This document shows positions 7,361 through 29,436 of a DNA stretch of 34,125 nucleotides, piece by piece. Below the pieces are notes generated by a model, which was not told where the DNA came from, did not search any database, and saw only the letters and a list, made by a program, of their open reading frames with translations. The position numbers and the translations under genes are program-made. Numbering within the stretch: position 1 is the stretch's first letter; every line of letters starts with the position of its first letter. This stretch comes from an uncultured Bacilli bacterium (GTDB lineage: Bacteria; Bacillota_I; Bacilli_A; ML615J-28; CAG-313), in NCBI GenBank assembly GCA_944326155.1, contig CALVCV010000016.1, positions 1 through 34,125 on the forward strand. Reading direction: 5' to 3'.

Positions 7361-7426
7361 TGTGGAAAAAATGTTTATAATTTTATATTTCTTTTGTGGA
7401 TAAAATGTGGATAACTATGTGGAAAA
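7361..7426 (-). other. oriC: oriC: DnaA-box cluster upstream of dnaA
   Basis: Four DnaA boxes in the same orientation, reading TTATCCACA on the minus strand: TTTTCCACA at 7361-7369 and 7418-7426 (one mismatch each), and exact TTATCCACA at 7395-7403 and 7406-7414. The last three are spaced 11 and 12 bases start to start, about one helix turn. By analogy with Bacillus incA/B this is the upstream half of a bipartite origin and probably also represses the dnaA promoter 20-50 bases downstream. Flanking DNA is AT-rich. Confidence 0.92.
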
Positions 7427-7472: not shown

Positions 7473-7490
7473 ATTTAAGAGGTGATTTTA

Positions 7491-8873
7491 GTGCAACAAG
7501 CATATGTTTTGTTAAATAAAGTCAAAGAAGAATTAAAAGAAAAATTTATACCTGCTCAATATAATACAATTTTCAATGAAATAACCCAAATTTATAAAGT
7601 TCAAGGTGGTAATATTTATCTAGTTGTGGCAAACAGTTTAGAAAAATTTCGATTAGAAAAAATATATTTAAATCAAATGAATGAAATTCTAAACACTTTT
7701 ACTACAGAGCCAATGCAATTTAAATTTATTACCGCCTCTGATGCAAACAAAGAAAAAGAAAAAAACAATACAATTGGTTTAACAAATGTTGATGCAAGCG
7801 AAAAAGCTGTAAAAGAAAGAGTATTAAGGCCTGAATATACTTTTGATAACTTTGTAACTGGTGAGGCCAATCGTGAAGCATTTACTTTTTCAGTAAAGGT
7901 TGCTGAATCTCCTCATGTAACCATCAATCCTTTTTATATTTTTGGTGATGTTGGACTAGGAAAAACACATTTAATGATGGCTATAGGTCACTATATACTT
8001 GATAATAACTTAAATACTAAGATTATTTATACAACAGCACAACAATTTGTTGAAGATTATTTTAAATCCAAGAATAAAAATCAAAAATCAACAACTATAT
8101 CAGATTATTTTGATACCTACTATCGTAGTGCTGATGTTTTATTGGTTGATGATATTCAATATCTTGCTGATAGACAAGGTTCACAAGATGAATTTTTTAA
8201 ATTATTTGAATATCTTTTTGAAAATAACAAACAAATTATTGTTACATCAGATCGTAAAGCTAGTGAATTAAATATTATGGATCGTCTAAAATCACGATTT
8301 ACTTGGGGTATGCAAGTTGATATTAGAAAGCCAAATCAAGATTTAAGAAAAGCAATTTTAAAAAGAAAACTGGCAACTTTAATTGCAAATGTTGATGATG
8401 TATCTAATGATGCATTGGATTATATCGCAACTAATTTTGAAGAAAATGTTCGTGAATTAGAAGGAGCACTACGTCGTTTTGTGAATTATTGTGTAGCATT
8501 TAATATTGATTATACTTTAGAAAATGCCAAACTTGCTTTAGAATCCATTATTTCTTCTAACAAAAATACATCTGAAGAAATGTCTTCTAACCAAGTAGAA
8601 AAAGTAAAATCTATTATTTCTTCCTATTTTAACATTCCTGTAAAAGAACTTTCTGGCTCTTCTAGAAAACAAGAAATAGTTTACGCAAGAAGTGTTACAA
8701 TCTATTTATTAAGAACTATATACAATATTGGACTTAAAAAAATTGGTGAATATTTAGGAAATAGAGATCATTCTACCATAGCTCATGCAATTGATAAAAT
8801 CGAAGACGGTATAAAAACTGATGAATTTATTAGTCAAGATGTTCGTAATTTAATTGATAAATTGAATAAATAA
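7491..8873 (+). CDS. dnaA: Chromosomal replication initiator DnaA
   Basis: AAA+ ATPase that binds DnaA boxes, melts the origin and loads helicase. I place the start at GTG 7491, because the ribosome site AAGAGGTGA (7477-7485) is correctly spaced for it; an in-frame GTG at 7482 lies inside that site. This gives 460 residues. Domain I at about 1-75, a linker rich in Lys/Asn/Glu to about 112, AAA+ domain III with Walker A GDVGLGKTH (152-160) and Walker B VLLVDD (216-221), and domain IV with the DnaA-box signature GNRDHSTIAHAIDKIE near the C-terminus. Ends TAA. It is flanked on both sides by DnaA boxes and followed by dnaN. Confidence 0.98.
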   Translation: MQQAYVLLNKVKEELKEKFIPAQYNTIFNEITQIYKVQGGNIYLVVANSLEKFRLEKIYLNQMNEILNTFTTEPMQFKFITASDANKEKEKNNTIGLTNVDASEKAVKERVLRPEYTFDNFVTGEANREAFTFSVKVAESPHVTINPFYIFGDVGLGKTHLMMAIGHYILDNNLNTKIIYTTAQQFVEDYFKSKNKNQKSTTISDYFDTYYRSADVLLVDDIQYLADRQGSQDEFFKLFEYLFENNKQIIVTSDRKASELNIMDRLKSRFTWGMQVDIRKPNQDLRKAILKRKLATLIANVDDVSNDALDYIATNFEENVRELEGALRRFVNYCVAFNIDYTLENAKLALESIISSNKNTSEEMSSNQVEKVKSIISSYFNIPVKELSGSSRKQEIVYARSVTIYLLRTIYNIGLKKIGEYLGNRDHSTIAHAIDKIEDGIKTDEFISQDVRNLIDKLNK

Positions 8874-8917: not shown

Positions 8918-8985
8918 TTATCCACATTTCAACATTACTAATAATAATTATAAATAATATTATAAATAAAAAAATATAGAGGTGA
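8918..8985 (+). other. oriC: downstream DnaA box and AT-rich unwinding element
   Basis: An exact DnaA box TTATCCACA (8918-8926) lies in the dnaA-dnaN gap in the orientation opposite to the upstream cluster. It is followed by ATTACTAATAATAATTA and about 40 more bases that are almost all A or T. Read 3' to 5' on the other strand, the trinucleotides after the box keep a central A (AAT, GAT, TAT, TAT, TAA), resembling the DnaA-trio elements on which DnaA opens single strands in Bacillus. This is the probable unwinding site. The box is seen; the trio role is inferred. Confidence 0.8.
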
Positions 8986-8991
8986 TTAAAA

Positions 8992-10113
8992 ATGAAATTT
9001 ACAATCGATAGAGAAGTTCTACTTACAACTTTACAAAATGTATCAAAAGGACTATCACAAAAAACACCTATGCCTGTTTTAACAGGTATTCAAATTACAA
9101 TTATTGGTGGCAAAATTATTTTTGTTTCTACAAATAAAGAAATTGCAATTAAAGTTACACTTGAAAAAAGTAATAAAGTAAGATTATATGAAGATGGTGA
9201 ATGTGTTGTCCCTGGTAAATATTTTTTAGATATTACAAAAAAAGTTGAAGGTAAAGATATTGAATTTACATTATTTGAAAAAAACTCAATTAAGATTATT
9301 TCTGATAAATCAGATTTTACCTTAATTGCTTATGATAAAACAACCTATCCACAAACTAATTTTAATGTAACTAGTAATGCAATTTTGTTTGATAGTAAAG
9401 AATTAAAAAAGATTGTTCGTCAAACATCATTTGCATGTTCACTTTCTGAATCTAGAATTGTTTTAACCAGTTTGAATTTTAAAGCCAAAAATGGGGTATT
9501 AGATATTGTTGCAACAGATAGTTTTAGACTTGCTAAGAAGCAATCAAAACTTGCAGAAGAAGCAGAAATTAATGCTAATATTCCAAGTAAAGCATTAGAA
9601 GAATTTTGTAAAATTTTAGAAGATGATTCAACGTATGTAAAAATGTATTTAGAAAATAGTAAAGCTTTATTTGAATATAAAAATATAATTTTTGTTACAA
9701 GATTAATAGAAGGATCATATCCTGATACTTCATCACTTTTCCCTAAAGAGTATTTGTATAAAGTTGATTTTAATAAAAACGAGTTAATAAATGCGGTTGA
9801 TAGAGCATCACTATTTGCTAGTTTGGATAATTTAAGCATTGTTAAGTTTACTTTTAGTAATTCTAATCACGTTGAAATTGCTTCAAACTCATCAGAGATT
9901 GGAAAAGTTGTCGAAGAAATCTCAATTTTAAACGAAATGGATATTGTAAATTTCCAAATTGCGTTTAGTACAAGGTATTTACTAGATGCTCTTAGAGCGT
10001 TTGAAAAAGATATTGTATCCTTCTTTTTTACAGGTGAAATCAAACCAGCTATTATAAAAGAGAAAGATAATGATAATTTAATGCAGTTATTATTGCCAGT
10101 TAGAGTTTTTTAA
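8992..10113 (+). CDS. dnaN: DNA polymerase III beta sliding clamp
   Basis: Ring-shaped clamp that tethers the replicative polymerase to DNA. The 373-residue protein follows the three-fold clamp layout: N-terminal domain (MKFTIDREVLLTTLQNVSKG), middle domain with ATDSFRLAKK, and C-terminal end in MQLLLPVRVF, close to the usual QLLLPVR(L/F) ending. GAGGTGA ribosome site upstream. It follows dnaA across the unwinding region. Unlike the common order dnaA-dnaN-yaaA-recF, it is separated from yaaA-recF here by a ParA/RHH pair and 1.3 kb of AT-rich DNA, and a terminator ends its transcript. Confidence 0.98.
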   Translation: MKFTIDREVLLTTLQNVSKGLSQKTPMPVLTGIQITIIGGKIIFVSTNKEIAIKVTLEKSNKVRLYEDGECVVPGKYFLDITKKVEGKDIEFTLFEKNSIKIISDKSDFTLIAYDKTTYPQTNFNVTSNAILFDSKELKKIVRQTSFACSLSESRIVLTSLNFKAKNGVLDIVATDSFRLAKKQSKLAEEAEINANIPSKALEEFCKILEDDSTYVKMYLENSKALFEYKNIIFVTRLIEGSYPDTSSLFPKEYLYKVDFNKNELINAVDRASLFASLDNLSIVKFTFSNSNHVEIASNSSEIGKVVEEISILNEMDIVNFQIAFSTRYLLDALRAFEKDIVSFFFTGEIKPAIIKEKDNDNLMQLLLPVRVF

Positions 10114-10124
10114 GATTAAAAAAT

Positions 10125-10154
10125 AAAAAAAGCGCCTAAAAAAGGCGCTTTTTT
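10125..10154 (+). terminator. Bidirectional terminator between dnaN and parA
   Basis: AGCGCC (10131-10136) pairs with GGCGCT (10144-10149), extended by A5/T5 on the outer side, loop of seven bases. It serves convergent dnaN and parA. Confidence 0.92.
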
Positions 10155-10161
10155 GCATTTT

Positions 10162-10950
10162 TTAATCAAGTTTTACGTCTTTAAAAATAGAAATTAAGTC
10201 TTTTTTTATCTCATCAAAATTCTTTTGGTGGAATCGGTCTTTCATTGGTTGATTATCAAAGATTGAAATACCATCTGACTGAATGTTTTTGATTTCTGCT
10301 TTATCCTTGATTGGAGAGGTAATTTCTGCATCTGGAGTAAGAGTTTTTGCTTGCTCTTTTAACTCTTTCAAACATTTGATTGGAGCACGTCTTCCTTTGA
10401 TGTATCCAACGGGTACAACGTACCGAATTTTAGCTAAATCAATGTCAGTATCTACAAAATACTGAATTGTGTTCGAAAAACCTTGTAAACCAAGCGTGTC
10501 TAAGCCGACAACAATTAAAATAGAGTCACTAATATCTAATAGAATTTCACTTAATCTACTACTAGAAGGTGGAAAATCAATAAAAATATAGTCAAAAAAA
10601 TTACGAAAACTCTCAATAATTTGTCTTAAATGCTTTTCTTCAGACCTTTTTAGCGTTAAATTAAGCGAAAGTCTGTCAGTATTTAAGGTTTTCATTAAAT
10701 ACATATTTATTCTTGCTTCAAAAGTAATATCTTGAGGCTTTTTTTCACCAACCAAGAGATGTTCAAAGAAATCATCATCACGATCAGTAACAAAATTATC
10801 AACACCAAAAATTTTAAAAATACTATTTTGATCATCAGCACTAATAACAAGAACTGTTTTTCCTTGAGTTGCGTGATAGTGTGCAAGATATCCTAAAAAA
10901 GTAGTCTTGCCTACGCCACCTTTTTTACAAAATACAGAAATGATTGACAT
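10162..10950 (-). CDS. parA: ParA-family partition ATPase
   Basis: ATPase of the ParA/Soj/MinD class that drives DNA or cargo segregation on the nucleoid. 262 residues, with the deviant Walker A near the start (CKKGGVGKTTFLGYLAH), the DxDxQN-like SADDQNSIFKIFG, a Walker B region YIFIDFPPSSS, and a C-terminal half with SPIKDKAEIKNIQSDG, typical of ParA switch and DNA-binding segments. No N-terminal helix-turn-helix, so it is not a P1-type ParA. Its upstream partner is a ribbon-helix-helix protein whose stop overlaps this start by one base, an arrangement known from plasmid partition cassettes (ParA with ParG-like proteins). No ParB homologue is visible. The role in chromosome segregation is inferred from its position beside oriC. 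Confidence 0.93.
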   Translation of the reverse strand: MSIISVFCKKGGVGKTTFLGYLAHYHATQGKTVLVISADDQNSIFKIFGVDNFVTDRDDDFFEHLLVGEKKPQDITFEARINMYLMKTLNTDRLSLNLTLKRSEEKHLRQIIESFRNFFDYIFIDFPPSSSRLSEILLDISDSILIVVGLDTLGLQGFSNTIQYFVDTDIDLAKIRYVVPVGYIKGRRAPIKCLKELKEQAKTLTPDAEITSPIKDKAEIKNIQSDGISIFDNQPMKDRFHQKNFDEIKKDLISIFKDVKLD

Positions 10951-11300
10951 TATCTACCGCCTTCTCTCTGCAATTTTTCACGGCATGCATCTTCCACAAA
11001 CTTTGCAAACATGATTCCGCGAGTTGCACAAGCTATTTTAATCTGTCTTCTTAAAGTTACATCCATTGTTGAAGTGTATTTTTCTCTATTAACGTCTATA
11101 GGCTCATAATATTGTTGTCTCACAACTTGCTTTGGTTGTCTTTGTGTAGAACGAGCGGTATATGAATTAGTTTGAGATGGCTTTTGTGGTTCAACTTCTT
11201 CTATGACCTCTTCAATATTAGCTTTTTCCTCACTAAGTTGCTCTTCGAAACCTCTGGGTTCATCAAATGGATTTCTTCTTTTAATGGGTTGTTGATTCAT
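10950..11300 (-). CDS. ParG-like ribbon-helix-helix DNA-binding protein (candidate centromere binder)
   Basis: 116 residues. Residues 1-70 are charged and low in hydrophobic residues (Glu-rich EEQLSEEKANIEEVIEEVE, then Gln/Ser/Thr-rich), probably disordered. The C-terminal 40 residues form a ribbon-helix-helix: strand TSTMDVTL, helix RRQIKIACATRG, turn IMFAKF, helix VEDACREKLQ. A mobile N-terminal tail plus C-terminal RHH is the layout of ParG-type centromere-binding proteins, whose tail stimulates the ParA ATPase. It is co-transcribed with parA (TAATG overlap) and has a strong promoter facing a large non-coding region that may hold its binding sites. Plasmid ParG proteins also repress their own promoter. 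Function is inferred; the fold is fairly clear. Confidence 0.85.
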   Translation of the reverse strand: MNQQPIKRRNPFDEPRGFEEQLSEEKANIEEVIEEVEPQKPSQTNSYTARSTQRQPKQVVRQQYYEPIDVNREKYTSTMDVTLRRQIKIACATRGIMFAKFVEDACREKLQREGGR

Positions 11301-11327
11301 ATTTATGTTCCTCCTTTATTCAAAAAC

Positions 11328-11356
11328 ATTATAACAAAATAAAAAAATATTTACAA
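11328..11356 (-). promoter_or_regulatory. Promoter of the RHH-parA operon
   Basis: On the minus strand TTGTAA (11356-11351), 17-base spacer ending TGT, TATAAT (11333-11328). A consensus -10 with extended TGn. The ribosome site AAAGGAGGAA follows close to the RHH start. No clear operator repeat stands out from the AT-rich background. Confidence 0.8.
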
Positions 11357-11359
11357 GTA

Positions 11360-12545
11360 ATTTGCTGTATTTATTTAGATAACTATATAAGTATAACCAT
11401 AAATATTTTGTTGGTATATTTTTAATAAATCTAGGTTCAATTCAAAAAATAAAAAAACAAATTAAAAAAGCACTAAATATTTTAAAATGAGCCTAAAAAA
11501 ACGGCTAAAAATCAATTTTTGTTAAAAAGATGAAAAATTATAAGCCCCCTGGGGGGTAAAATTAAATTTTTATTGTTTTTCAAAGAGGCAAAAAAAATAA
11601 TTTTATGCTTTGCAGTAGAAAAAAATTTTTGTATGTCTAGAAATAAATACATAAAAACATAATTACGTTTTTAAATTTTTTGTTTCAGAATGTAATAATA
11701 ATTTTTAATTTAAAAATTATTTATTTTAATATAAAAACAATATAGATTAATTATTTTTATATTAAATGTTTATTTTTTTAATTTAAAAATATAATACTTA
11801 AAAAAATATTTTTTAATATAAAACAAAAATATTTTAATTTATAAATAAAAAACTAATAAATATTTAATATAAAACTTTTTATTTTTAAAATAAAATATAT
11901 TTTTTTGCTTAAAAACATTTTGTTTTAAAAAATAGTAATGTATTAAAAGTAATTATATTTATTTTAAAATAATATTTAAATATTTAATTATTGTTTTAAA
12001 TATAATAATAAAAAAATAATTAAAGAAAAATTTAATATTTTTAAATTAAAAATAAAAAACATTCTATAAATAAATATTTAAATAAGTAAAGAAATAAATA
12101 AATTTTTATTTAAAGTGTATTTATTTAAATAAATAAAGTAATAAAAAAATAAAAAAATAAATAATTAATTAAATATAATAATATAAACTTAATTATTATA
12201 ATATTTAATTAAACAAAAAAATAATTAAAGTTATATTATTATACATATTATATAAAAACTTATAAATTAAAAGTATTAAAAAAAACGACGTTTTTTATAA
12301 AAAACTTTATTTAAAATTAAAATAATAATATTTTTTTTTAGAGTTAATTTTAAATAAATAATATATTATATATATAATAAGGAATATACTTATTTACATA
12401 AAAAAACAATCAAAACTACATTTAAAGTACTAAATGTCAATTTTTTAATAGGAAAAAATCGATTAACAATAATTAAATAAAAAAAATAAAAAAAACTATA
12501 AAATTTTAAGTTTTTTTAAGCTTAATTATTGTTAAAAAAAGAAGT
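11360..12545. other. Long non-coding, extremely AT-rich region between the ParA operon and recF operon
   Basis: No plausible gene on either strand over almost 1.2 kb. By hand count 11701-12300 contains 33 G or C in 600 bases (about 5.5%), far below the flanking genes. The sequence is made of short A and T runs and TTTAAAT-like words. Exceptions stand out: CCCCCTGGGGGG at 11545-11556 near the left edge, AAAAAACGACGTTTTTT at 12280-12296, and a long inverted repeat at 12463-12535. It could be a centromere for the neighbouring ParA/RHH pair, an auxiliary unwinding or strand-opening zone of the origin, or simply decayed DNA. It does not look like an insertion sequence or tRNA/rRNA gene. Confidence 0.75.
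12463..12535. repeat. 14-base perfect inverted repeat upstream of the recF operon
   Basis: TTAACAATAATTAA (12463-12476) and its exact reverse complement TTAATTATTGTTAA (12522-12535) are separated by 45 bases. The spacer itself contains an imperfect A-run/T-run hairpin (around CTATAAAATTTTAAG). Together they can form one long interrupted hairpin or cruciform that ends about 18 bases before the -35 of the yaaA promoter. Role unknown: operator, cruciform or leftward terminator. Confidence 0.7.
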
Positions 12546-12553
12546 CAAAAAAA

Positions 12554-12582
12554 TTGAAAAAAAAACACATTTATGATATAAT
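12554..12582 (+). promoter_or_regulatory. Promoter of the yaaA-recF-gyrB-gyrA operon
   Basis: TTGAAA (12554-12559), 17-base spacer ending TGA, TATAAT (12577-12582). Near-consensus with extended -10. Transcription should start near 12589, 19 bases before the start codon. Confidence 0.88.
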
Positions 12583-12607
12583 AAAAATAGTAAAAAAGAG
12601 GTTTCAA

Positions 12608-12818
12608 ATGAAGGTTGTTAAAATTGTTACTAATTCAATAAAATTGGGCCAATTTTTGAAGTTTTTGGGCTTAGTATCTATGGGTGGAGAGGTCAAAAAT
12701 TTTTTGGTTCAAAATACTATAAAAGTTAATAATGTTGTGATAAAACAAAGAGGAAAACAATTGTTTATAGGTGATATTATTGAAATAAATCGTGAAAAAT
12801 TTATTTTAGAGGAGAAAA

Positions 12819-12829
<11 letters not shown>
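12608..12829 (+). CDS. yaaA: S4-domain RNA-binding protein, YaaA type
   Basis: 73-residue protein with a single S4 RNA-binding domain: LGQFLKFLGLVSMGGEVKNF and then IKVNNVVIKQRGKQLFIGDIIEI, the usual VNGxxExRRGxKLxxGD pattern. The start is ATG 12608, preceded by AAGAGG; a longer reading frame beginning at 12554 would start inside the promoter. It overlaps recF by 11 bases, the conserved arrangement with recF in Firmicutes. Known homologues bind RNA, possibly on the ribosome; the exact role is not established. Confidence 0.93.
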
Positions 12830-15843
<3,014 letters not shown>

Positions 15844-21069: not shown

Positions 21070-21492
21070 TTATACATAACAATTTTCACTTTCTACTGGA
21101 GCATAAAAACAATGAGATTTGTATCTACCAGTATTCCATTGTCCCCACCACTGTGCCATACAGTCATTACTTGCTGCATTATAAAACCACAAAGCTTGGC
21201 TTGCGGGATGAAACTTCTCCCCTTTTAACACTCTCTTGGCTAAATTTATATCTGATTTGCGTGCTGGTTCATAAAAATAAGAATAAAGTGTTGATTCAAA
21301 GCCTCCAGGATGTTGATAAACCATTTGTTCAATAGAAGTAATCTCTTTAAAATCAAGACAATTTGCAAGGACACGATTTACTCCAACATTACCTACCATT
21401 AACATTCCAAGAGCACCTTCACTTTCTGCTTCTGCACGCATTAATCTTGCTAAGAGCTCAAGTTCTTTTTGATTATAAGAAATAATTGACAT
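21070..21492 (-). CDS. cwlJ: Spore cortex-lytic enzyme CwlJ
   Basis: Cell wall hydrolase of the SleB/CwlJ family (Hydrolase_2), which degrades cortex peptidoglycan during germination. Start ATG 21492, preceded by GGTGAT; the frame is open further upstream, but that part is a hydrophobic non-conserved reading through the promoter. 140 residues with no signal peptide, as in Bacillus CwlJ (about 142). Visible: LARLMRAEAESEGALGMLMV with the likely catalytic glutamate in RAEAE, VGNVGVNRV, HPGGFES and FHPASQALWFYNA, and the end WGQWNTGRYKSHCFY. It lies upstream of gerQ, its localisation partner, and diverges from ppa. Confidence 0.95.
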   Translation of the reverse strand: MSIISYNQKELELLARLMRAEAESEGALGMLMVGNVGVNRVLANCLDFKEITSIEQMVYQHPGGFESTLYSYFYEPARKSDINLAKRVLKGEKFHPASQALWFYNAASNDCMAQWWGQWNTGRYKSHCFYAPVESENCYV

Positions 21493-21506
21493 TCTATCAC
21501 CAATAT

Positions 21507-21532
21507 AGTATATGAATTGTTGTTTAAAATAT
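21507..21532 (-). promoter_or_regulatory. Possible SigE-type (mother-cell) promoter of cwlJ-gerQ
   Basis: On the minus strand ATATT (21532-21528), 13 bases, then CATATACT (21514-21507), about 15 bases before the cwlJ start. The -10 fits the SigE form CATAnnnT, and the -35 fits the ATATT core; the spacer is about one base shorter than usual. Homologous cwlJ genes are mother-cell expressed. The match is short in AT-rich DNA, so moderate support only. Confidence 0.4.
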
Positions 21533-21539
21533 AATATCA

Positions 21540-21568
21540 TTGCAAAAAAAATAAAAGTAATGTATAAT
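21540..21568 (+). promoter_or_regulatory. Promoter of ppa-folD-pth-mfd
   Basis: TTGCAA (21540-21545), 17-base spacer, TATAAT (21563-21568). Good SigA promoter facing away from cwlJ; leader of about 55 bases before the ppa start. Confidence 0.8.
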
Positions 21569-21628
21569 AATAAAAAAAGAAAAGAAGGATATAAATATAA
21601 AAGATGAAAGAAAAGAAAGGAAATAAAT

Positions 21629-22174
21629 ATGAACATTTGGCACGATATGGATTCTCAAAAAATTAAGCCTAATGATTTTTATGCGGTTGTTGAAATCAGC
21701 AAAGGCAGTAAAAATAAATATGAATTAGACAAATCCACAGGTCTTATTATGCTTGATAGAATTTTATATACTTCTACGCATTATCCAGCAAATTATGGAT
21801 TTATTCCACTTACATATGCGAATGATTTAGACCCTCTTGATGTGCTTGTTTTATGTAGTGAATCGCTCATACCAATGAGTCTTGTAAGATGTTATCCTGT
21901 GGGAGTGATTCGTATGATTGATGGTAAATATGATGATGATAAAATACTTGCTATCCCATATAATGATCCTAATATGAATCATTACAAAACGTTAGATGAT
22001 GTACCGAAGCACATGATTAGTGAAATTGAACATTTTTTTATGGTATATAAAAACCTAGAACATAAAAGTACAACTGGTTTTAAATTAGATGGTAAAGAAG
22101 AAGCAATGAACATTATCAAAAAAGCCCTTGATGATTATCAACAAAATAAAGAACAACTTATTATAAAACATTAG
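21629..22174 (+). CDS. ppa: Inorganic pyrophosphatase, family I
   Basis: Hydrolyses pyrophosphate to two phosphates, pulling biosynthetic reactions forward. 181 residues. Motifs: the metal-binding DLDPLDVLVL (family pattern DxDPxDVL), YPANYGFIPLTYAND, DGKYDDDKILAIP and the late KSTTGFKLDGKEEAMNII. This is the soluble family I enzyme (EC 3.6.1.1), notable because many Bacilli use the unrelated family II Mn-dependent enzyme instead. Ribosome site AAAGGA. A hairpin follows the stop and then folD begins after 50 bases. Confidence 0.94.
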   Translation: MNIWHDMDSQKIKPNDFYAVVEISKGSKNKYELDKSTGLIMLDRILYTSTHYPANYGFIPLTYANDLDPLDVLVLCSESLIPMSLVRCYPVGVIRMIDGKYDDDKILAIPYNDPNMNHYKTLDDVPKHMISEIEHFFMVYKNLEHKSTTGFKLDGKEEAMNIIKKALDDYQQNKEQLIIKH

Positions 22175-27165: not shown

Positions 27166-27693
27166 TTGAAAGCAACAGGAGTAGTAAGAAGAATTGATGA
27201 TTTAGGTAGAATTGTTTTACCTAAAGAATTAAGAAGAACGATGCGTATCAAAGAAGGTGAATCTTTAGAAATATATACCGATGGTACAGACAGAATTGTT
27301 TTGAAAAAATATTCGCCTGTCCAAAATGTTAATGATTTTGTTGAAGAATTTGTAGAAAGTGTATATGCATCAAATAAAAAAGATATTATTATTACGGATA
27401 ACGAAAAAGTAATTGCTTATGCAGGCAATTTTAAAACTGATTTAAGTAATAAAAGAATTTCAATGAGATTAGAAGAAAAAATGAGTAAGCGACAAACACA
27501 AGTAATAGATAAAGCTGAAAATTTTGAATTTTTCGAGAATTTTCCTATTAACAAAGCTGCGATTATTAAACCAATTAATGTAATGGGAGATATTTCGGGG
27601 TCAGTGATTGTTTTAAGTGATACTATTACTGATGTTGAAAAATCGCTTGCAGAATTTGGTGGTATGTTTATGGGAAGATATTTAGAAGGATAA
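27166..27693 (+). CDS. spoVT: Stage V sporulation regulator SpoVT
   Basis: AbrB-family transcription factor that adjusts SigG-dependent genes in the forespore. 175 residues. N-terminal swapped-hairpin DNA-binding domain (residues 1-50: MKATGVVRRIDDLGRIVLPK, ELRRTMRIKEGESLEIY), and a C-terminal GAF-like domain of about 115 residues, which separates SpoVT from AbrB and Abh. Starts with TTG, preceded by ATGGAGG at good spacing. It directly follows mfd, as in Bacillus, and ends at a strong terminator. Confidence 0.94.
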   Translation: MKATGVVRRIDDLGRIVLPKELRRTMRIKEGESLEIYTDGTDRIVLKKYSPVQNVNDFVEEFVESVYASNKKDIIITDNEKVIAYAGNFKTDLSNKRISMRLEEKMSKRQTQVIDKAENFEFFENFPINKAAIIKPINVMGDISGSVIVLSDTITDVEKSLAEFGGMFMGRYLEG

Positions 27694-27811: not shown

Positions 27812-29436
27812 ATGAAAAAAATATGTTTAATAGTATTTGTAACATCTTTATTTTTTTTAATTCACTTAAATGATGTAAAAGCTGAGCAATATGAAAATAT
27901 AGATATTGTAACAGTAGCAAATTATTATATTAATGAATATTTTGATTGTAGTTATCACCTAAAAAACTATGAATATATTTATGATTTAGACAATAAGTGG
28001 CATTATTTAATTCATGTTGATCCTATATGATATATGATTATAGATAAAGATACTTTCAATTTACAAGAGGCATCTGTTAGTATGAATAGCCCATATAGTG
28101 AATATGATAGTAGTGATTTAAAAATATATTTAGGTCCTACTAATTATTATATATATGATAATAATCAACTTATAAATGTACATACTAAACATGAGATAAC
28201 TATAGATAGTGAACTAAATAATACTTTGAGTTTGCTAGAGAATAATTTTACTACAATAAACGAGATGCAGATGATCTCTATCGGTGGTGATGGTGGCGAA
28301 GATAACGATAGAACGTATGATACAAGTGGGTTTATATTAATCCCCAATGCTCAATATATGAAAAATTTAACCTTTTATCCTGATAATCAAAATGGTACTT
28401 GTGGTTATGTATCATTAAGTATTTTGTTAGGTTATCTTAATACTTTTTATAATCCTTATACTATTCCCGATGGTACTATCACTCATATAAGACCTGATGG
28501 TTCTAGTGAAACTAGTACTGGATTTATTACAAGTGCACCTAAAAACTATACATTAAATTTACCAAATGATTTATCTATTTATGATTGGGCAACAATGCCT
28601 GGTACTACTAATATAATATACGACATTTTACAAGATTATGAACATTATTTATTACAAACATCTAATGGAAATGCCGTAGCGTCTAATCAATTTGAAGATA
28701 CTTTTTTAGATTATAAGGATGATTATATACCAAGTGAATATCAAAATAATTATGAAATAGTGAATATTCCTTTTAGTTCATTGCAAAATAAAAAAATAAA
28801 GCTAAAGAATTAATAGATGAAGGCATTCCTGTTGTTTTGTCGCTTACAAATTATGATTACACAACAAATATTGGGACAGGTAATGGTAATTTGCAAGAAG
28901 CTCATAATGTTATTGCTTATGGATATAAAAACGATATGTTTTTGACTCATTTTGGTTGGAAAGGCGAGGCTAATTATAGAGAAGTGATATTAAATAGTTA
29001 TTCTATTTATTCAGTTTTTGCTATTAAATATATATCAGAACATATTCATAATGACTTTTTTGAGTGGAAAACCATATATGGAAATGGAACTTATTGTTCC
29101 TGTGGGTATTTGAATTGCAGTCATCCATCGAATAATTTTGTTCAAAATAATAACGAAAATCATCAATTTGTTGTGGGAGAAACTACAATGATTTGTAACC
29201 GATGTGGATTTGAGAAATCGTTACCATGTTCACATAATTATATCTATAATAATTATTATGATAAAATAGGCCATCAAATGAAATGTACAATATGTGGTGA
29301 TATAAAAAAAGAGTCTCATAAATGTATTTCAATTCAAGGAGTATATAGTTGTACAATTTGTCCATATGAAAATAAAAATATAGTAATTGGGCCTACTAAT
29401 TTATTTTTGAAAAAGGAGGAAAACGATGAAGAATAG
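27812..29436 (+). pseudogene. Secreted papain-like cysteine protease, broken by a stop and a frameshift
   Basis: Read through, this is one secreted protein of about 540 residues in three pieces: 27812-28030 (signal peptide MKKICLIVFVTSLFFLIHLN, cut near VKA/EQ), 28034-28813 and 28837-29436. TGA at 28028-28030 is exactly in frame; the downstream text continues YMIIDKDTF, suggesting an original GGA (GYMIID). At an A7 run (28790-28796) a one-base loss shifts the frame; restoring one A gives NKAKELIDEGIPVVLSLTNY. Catalytic Cys is in NGTCGYVSLSILLGYL; the His is in EAHNVIAYGY. The C-terminal part has repeated CxxC pairs (CNRCG, CTICG, CTICP), possibly metal binding. TGA is a stop elsewhere in this genome, so it is not Trp. 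Probably a recent pseudogene; slippage at A7 could repair only one lesion. Confidence 0.85.

Follow-up and report, generated by a model that had tools for sequence, protein, structure and literature searches.

A candidate ParA and ribbon-helix-helix chromosome partition cassette with octamer iterons beside the replication origin of an Anaeroplasma-like order of Bacilli

The locus analyzed here raises the question of whether a bacterial chromosome can be segregated by a ParA ATPase and a ribbon-helix-helix (RHH) adaptor instead of ParB and parS, as the preliminary description of this DNA had proposed. Nearly all related bacteria use ParB together with SMC. From our analysis, we consider it likely that the cassette serves the order to which the genome belongs as its chromosomal partition system, laid out on the plan of plasmid type Ib systems and standing in for a lost Spo0J/parS. 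This reading builds on the genes, their synteny, the iterons, the absence of ParB and SMC, and the lack of parS in the genome itself, all of which were seen directly; iteron binding by the RHH protein, stimulation of the ATPase, and origin movement are inferred.

The window, by which we mean the whole stretch of DNA analyzed, is one complete contig (C16; 34,125 bp) from a genome of 1.44 Mb that is 96% complete. The sign of the GC skew changes at about 6.5 to 8 kb of the window, roughly 3 kb from the cassette, which places the origin at dnaA (7482 to 8873, plus strand). DnaA boxes are found at 7395 to 7414 and at 8918; parA ends 1.2 kb away from them, and the first repeat array is at a distance of 2.4 kb. 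Beyond dnaN (8992 to 10113, plus strand), a neighbor that is conserved across relatives, the cassette is formed by two genes on the minus strand, parA (10162 to 10950) and rhh (10950 to 11300), with a bidirectional terminator-like hairpin (10126 to 10154) between the convergent dnaN and parA. The coupling of ParA to a small protein is borne out by a TAATG overlap in which the two genes share one base. The start of rhh is preceded by AGGAGG, and a promoter-like site for the operon, by consensus match only, is located at 11328 to 11356 on the minus strand (TTGTAA, 17 nt, TATAAT). The non-coding DNA that had been described upstream of the operon extends over 1.25 kb (11301 to 12553; 89% AT) and is treated here as the candidate centromere region. 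It ends at yaaA (12554 to 12829, plus strand; TIGR02988, 3e-18), which encodes an S4-domain protein and may really start at an ATG at 12609. The placement of the cassette between dnaN and recF (12819 to 13907, plus strand), close to the DnaA boxes, is thus upheld, with the addition that yaaA sits between the intergenic region and recF.

The parA product is a 262-amino-acid ATPase of the ParA/MinD superfamily (AAA_31, 1.7e-25). Its Walker A motif (KKGGVGKTT), A' motif (DDQ, followed by N), and Walker B motif (DFPP) are conserved in 19 orthologues, and as Walker A begins at residue 9, the protein is a small ParA without an N-terminal helix-turn-helix domain, the kind found in type Ib systems. 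The predicted structure resembles Soj, McdA, and Delta, with TM scores of about 0.7. In the phylogeny, the clade of this ParA groups with a clostridial clade (support 99/97), apart from the order's own Soj. These clostridial relatives are encoded at non-origin loci without arrays, next to partners with KRxNPL-type tails, and a canonical ParB is present in all nine of their genomes, from which it follows that ParA proteins of this family do not act exclusively at origins; the sister system possibly serves another cargo. Among the Clostridia metagenome-assembled genomes (MAGs) that carry this sister clade (L111 to L120), the adaptors share an N-terminal QKRTNPL motif and differ in their C termini. 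One adaptor (L116) has two copies of the motif, and in another (L119) the C-terminal end is basic and looks amphipathic.

The partner of ParA is a 116-amino-acid adaptor with an N-terminal KRRNPF motif (residues 7 to 12), a disordered linker, and a C-terminal RHH at about residues 72 to 113. Across orthologues, the consensus of the motif is PFKKRENPF, and the linker that follows varies in length. A single-sequence Pfam search of the window protein did not match the C-terminal RHH and a PDB search was likewise uninformative, so that a profile of the orthologue family, from an alignment of 24 members, was needed to recognize the fold. This profile matches the solved RHH protein 2kel (7.9e-8), and the AlphaFold model shows two helices (residues 81 to 94 and 98 to 113; pLDDT about 94) after an unstructured N terminus of low confidence. 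The architecture that had been described, with a disordered N terminus and a C-terminal RHH, is therefore confirmed by model and profile, and an adjacent RHH protein with a flexible N terminus, here the candidate centromere-binding protein, is characteristic of type Ib systems. Its description as ParG-like stands for the fold and not for family membership. Individual members match several RHH families of Pfam weakly: Omega_Repress at best at 1e-3 (5 of 24 members) and ParG at 0.016 (2 of 24), with no match to either for the window protein. Judged by sequence, the RHH protein is outside both the ParG and the Omega families.

The distribution of the cassette places these two genes into context. 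An RHH orthologue is encoded in 37 of the 43 genomes of the order, whereas the other 352 genomes of the class have none. Each of the 30 cassettes retrieved has ParA adjoining the RHH gene and dnaN beyond, and the 12-kb loci of named genomes read gyrB-recF-yaaA-gap-rhh-parA-dnaN-dnaA, so that the same neighbors recur throughout the order, close relatives included. Among the genomes of the order inspected, the locus was never away from the origin. A recently integrated plasmid, or a cassette absent from close relatives, is not what these comparisons reveal, and where type Ib systems are carried by low-copy plasmids, this one is chromosomal, in the dnaN-recF interval throughout the order. The genomes surveyed include MAGs, and of the six that yielded no RHH gene most are incomplete or fragmented, although two are 95 to 97% complete. 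One locus (L090) was rejected as a true absence of the RHH gene, as the stretch is masked. Records within the order are labeled Anaeroplasma bactoclasticum, Acholeplasmatales, Mollicutes, and Bacilli MAGs; we infer that it comprises Anaeroplasmataceae and UBA5453. It is an order of small-genome, Anaeroplasma-like Bacilli, for the most part uncultured gut bacteria.

The gap between rhh and yaaA/recF is conserved at about 1 to 2.7 kb wherever both ends are present, and it contains the candidate centromere. Upstream of rhh in 36 species, the spacing of ATGT/ACAT shows sharp peaks at 8, 16, 24, 32, and 40 bp, with 78 pairs at 8 bp observed against 2.4 expected. The repeat is an 8-bp iteron (ATGTATAT / ATGTAAAT) that occurs in both orientations, and in family f2 it forms a plain octamer array, with units such as ATGTATAT, ATGTTTTT, ATGTAAAT, and the inverted ACATATAT. 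In nearly all species, a proximal array reaches into the promoter region or directly borders it, an arrangement shared with type Ib systems, where an array of short repeats lies at the operon promoter; in many, further distal arrays are found about 430 to 690 bp upstream. Within the 12-kb loci, the arrays are confined to the rhh-recF gap, as a five-unit pattern has 92 matches in 54.6 kb of this intergenic DNA and none in the surrounding 394.6 kb. Genome-wide, in the 43 genomes, 92 of 103 pattern rows fall in the gap (counted by hand), and the remaining 11 are mostly AT-only matches of the ATAT type.

When only the window was searched, no ATGT/ACAT arrays emerged, and the autocorrelation of its intergenic DNA is weak. 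The arrays in the family of the window are degenerate and were exposed only by a position weight matrix (PWM) learned from family f2. Under this model, the six best sites in the 34 kb, both strands included, are all in the rhh-recF gap. The top site (11625 to 11672) falls at repeat array B (11621 to 11668), which consists of ACGTAATT ATGTTTTT ATGTATTT ATTTCTAG ACATACAA AAATTTTT; it is followed by three near-equal sites at 12115, 12064, and 11365. Array A (11361 to 11408) is made of degenerate 8-bp units that abut the -35 hexamer, has an alignable counterpart in nine relatives, and is putatively both operator and centromere. Arrays A and B score 12.1 and 24.2, compared with a maximum of 4.4 among 60 shuffles, and two weaker array-like stretches (12064 to 12111 and 12115 to 12162; 10.6 and 11.2) complete the top four of the window. 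The adjoining candidate centromere that had been suggested thus takes the form of 8-bp iteron arrays in the gap, degenerate in the window itself.

Between two repeat arrays, in very AT-rich DNA, sits a GC-rich conserved element that is itself promoter-like (TTAATT-TTACCCCCCAGGGGGCT-TATAAT; 11537 to 11565, minus strand) and has a palindromic spacer. Its order-wide form, TTGATTTT-(CCCCCnGGGGG)-nAATAAnTTT, occupies positions of roughly -265 to -390 in the majority of species, often with a palindromic spacer, and nothing comparable was found elsewhere in the window. The palindrome was rejected as an unusually stable DNA hairpin (z of -0.5), and an Rfam search of the region returned no RNA.

The statement that no ParB is visible can be extended from the window to the whole of its genome, which yields no match to ParB_N and none to parB_part. 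Across the class, 245 of 395 genomes have a ParB that passes the cut-off, and the E-values are typically very low. Eight relatives have ParB_N matches, mostly fusions to DNA methyltransferases and otherwise short proteins, some of them beside PAPS-reductase-like genes. On inspection, none of these is Spo0J-like; the fusions and ParB-like proteins of relatives (L037 to L046) probably belong to mobile elements. The methyltransferase fusions among them are often found beside a SAM-synthetase-like gene.

A normal soj-spo0J pair with parS sites elsewhere in the genome was not found either. The genome encodes soj on contig C12 (L006:5743-6519), in the order gidA-gidB-soj and without spo0J, and such an orphan soj follows gidA-gidB in 39 of the 43 genomes of the order (L144 to L173). 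In the loci read, the gene after soj, at the place expected for spo0J, is mscS (family f2) or spoIIE (family f1), which indicates that spo0J dropped out while soj was kept. A parS search at two mismatches gave three matches in the window's genome, each with two mismatches and none with the CACGTG core, and hence no recognizable parS. At this threshold chance matches arise in most genomes, so that sites in relatives were counted only and the counts are not used as evidence. Finally, SMC above the TIGR02168 cut-off is present in 0 of the 43 genomes of the order versus 10 of 14 control genomes, and ParB and SMC, the latter by TIGR02168 only, have apparently been lost jointly.

When these observations are combined, it can be hypothesized that RHH dimers coat the contiguous 8-bp iterons (ATGTAWAT-like, in both orientations) of the rhh-recF gap, forming a centromere complex about 2.5 to 4 kb from dnaA, and that the RHH protein would also repress its own promoter. 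Its disordered tail with the PFKKRENPF motif may then contact nucleoid-bound ParA-ATP and stimulate the ATPase, whereupon ParA would be released from the nucleoid and the resulting gradient could separate sister origins, comparable to the movement of plasmids by Delta/Omega or ParF/ParG.

Alternatively, the cassette could chiefly control DnaA initiation or transcription of the origin region, with ParA acting like monomeric Soj, which we regard as unlikely. In Bacillus subtilis, DnaA is regulated by Soj, and both the proximity of the cassette to dnaA and dnaN and the retention of an orphan Soj in the order would suit such a function; however, that orphan is the likelier DnaA regulator, and the multi-unit arrays, some of them 430 to 690 bp from the promoter, together with the conserved tail resembling a ParA contact, suggest a partition complex. 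Less probable still is that the arrays are merely the autoregulatory operator of rhh-parA and that ParA and the RHH protein position some other cargo. The proximal array at the promoter in nearly all species would agree with this, as would the McdA-like ParA model and the clostridial relatives with their varied partner C termini and no arrays, but the additional distal arrays in many species, the practical absence of such arrays elsewhere in the genomes, the invariable location at the origin in the order, and the failure to find a Spo0J-type ParB speak against it. Although the type Ib layout is typical of plasmids (PMC9499535), it is very improbable that the cassette is a functionless remnant of a plasmid integrated at the origin: it is intact in 20 genera and two families of the order, its ATPase motifs are invariant, and the plasmid and viral collections searched contain no close relative, only distant ones of its ParA.

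A wider reading, which we hold with only slightly better than even confidence, is that across the whole order, possibly including spore-makers, ParB-parS-SMC has been replaced by ParA, RHH protein, and an octamer-iteron centromere as the only active segregation system, with no origin-loaded SMC condensin. As a counterweight to the proposed role in partition, the orphan Soj of 39 of the 43 genomes could share the work, two fairly complete genomes yielded no RHH gene, the arrays in the window's family are degenerate, and the clostridial relatives of the ParA seem to serve other cargo.

Comparison with known systems illustrates what is shared and what is distinct. Delta/Omega of pSM19035 likewise combines a small ParA with an RHH protein bearing an N-terminal tail and has contiguous short repeats, in both orientations, that overlap promoters; at least four contiguous 7-bp heptads are needed there to activate ParA (PMC9499535). 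It differs in being plasmid borne, with 7-bp WATCACW repeats at six parS sites instead of 8-bp ATGTAWAT-like units at one chromosomal locus, and the Omega_Repress match of the RHH family is weak, as given above. ParF-ParG of TP228 has the same type Ib layout of a ParA and an RHH partner with a flexible tail, and TP228 ParA and ParG are among the structural matches, but parG follows parF on a plasmid, whereas rhh precedes parA on a chromosome, and the ParG match is no better than 0.016. In Sulfolobales, SegA and SegB, a ParA homologue and an RHH protein, segregate the chromosome (PMC12284271); that system is archaeal and uses palindromic TCTAGA-type sites scattered on the chromosome, in contrast to tandem octamers at a bacterial origin. 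Soj-Spo0J-parS with SMC has in common a ParA-type ATPase and an origin-proximal centromere, here a candidate one, yet its helix-turn-helix ParB, parS, and SMC are all missing here, where just an orphan soj is left.

Chromosomal centromere-binding proteins of bacteria have been reviewed as all belonging to the helix-turn-helix class (PMC5002424). If our reading is true, the order would be an exception to this rule for chromosomal partition, one in which a plasmid-style RHH system took over a chromosome and ParB and SMC were jointly lost. As SMC is normally loaded by ParB, the lineage could then serve as a natural experiment on the minimal needs of chromosome segregation. In the open-licence literature, we met no chromosomal ParA-RHH system other than SegAB and no earlier report of the present system. 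Anaeroplasma bactoclasticum, to use the record's own label, may allow testing in culture.

The findings also bear on how an origin is captured without Spo0J in a possible spore-former. The majority of Anaeroplasmataceae genomes have sporulation genes (PMC10868615), and the characterization of this bacterium as spore-forming is supported by SpoVT (27166 to 27693) and a SleB-like protein (21070 to 21636) in the window and by a divergent SpoIIE (L006:6835-9063) that adjoins soj. These proteins are consistent with predicted sporulation in uncultured relatives of the wall-less Anaeroplasma. Elsewhere in the window, two open reading frames (28034 to 28813 and 28837 to 29436) match different parts of the mycoplasma cysteine peptidase family NF045837 and are perhaps one broken or split gene.
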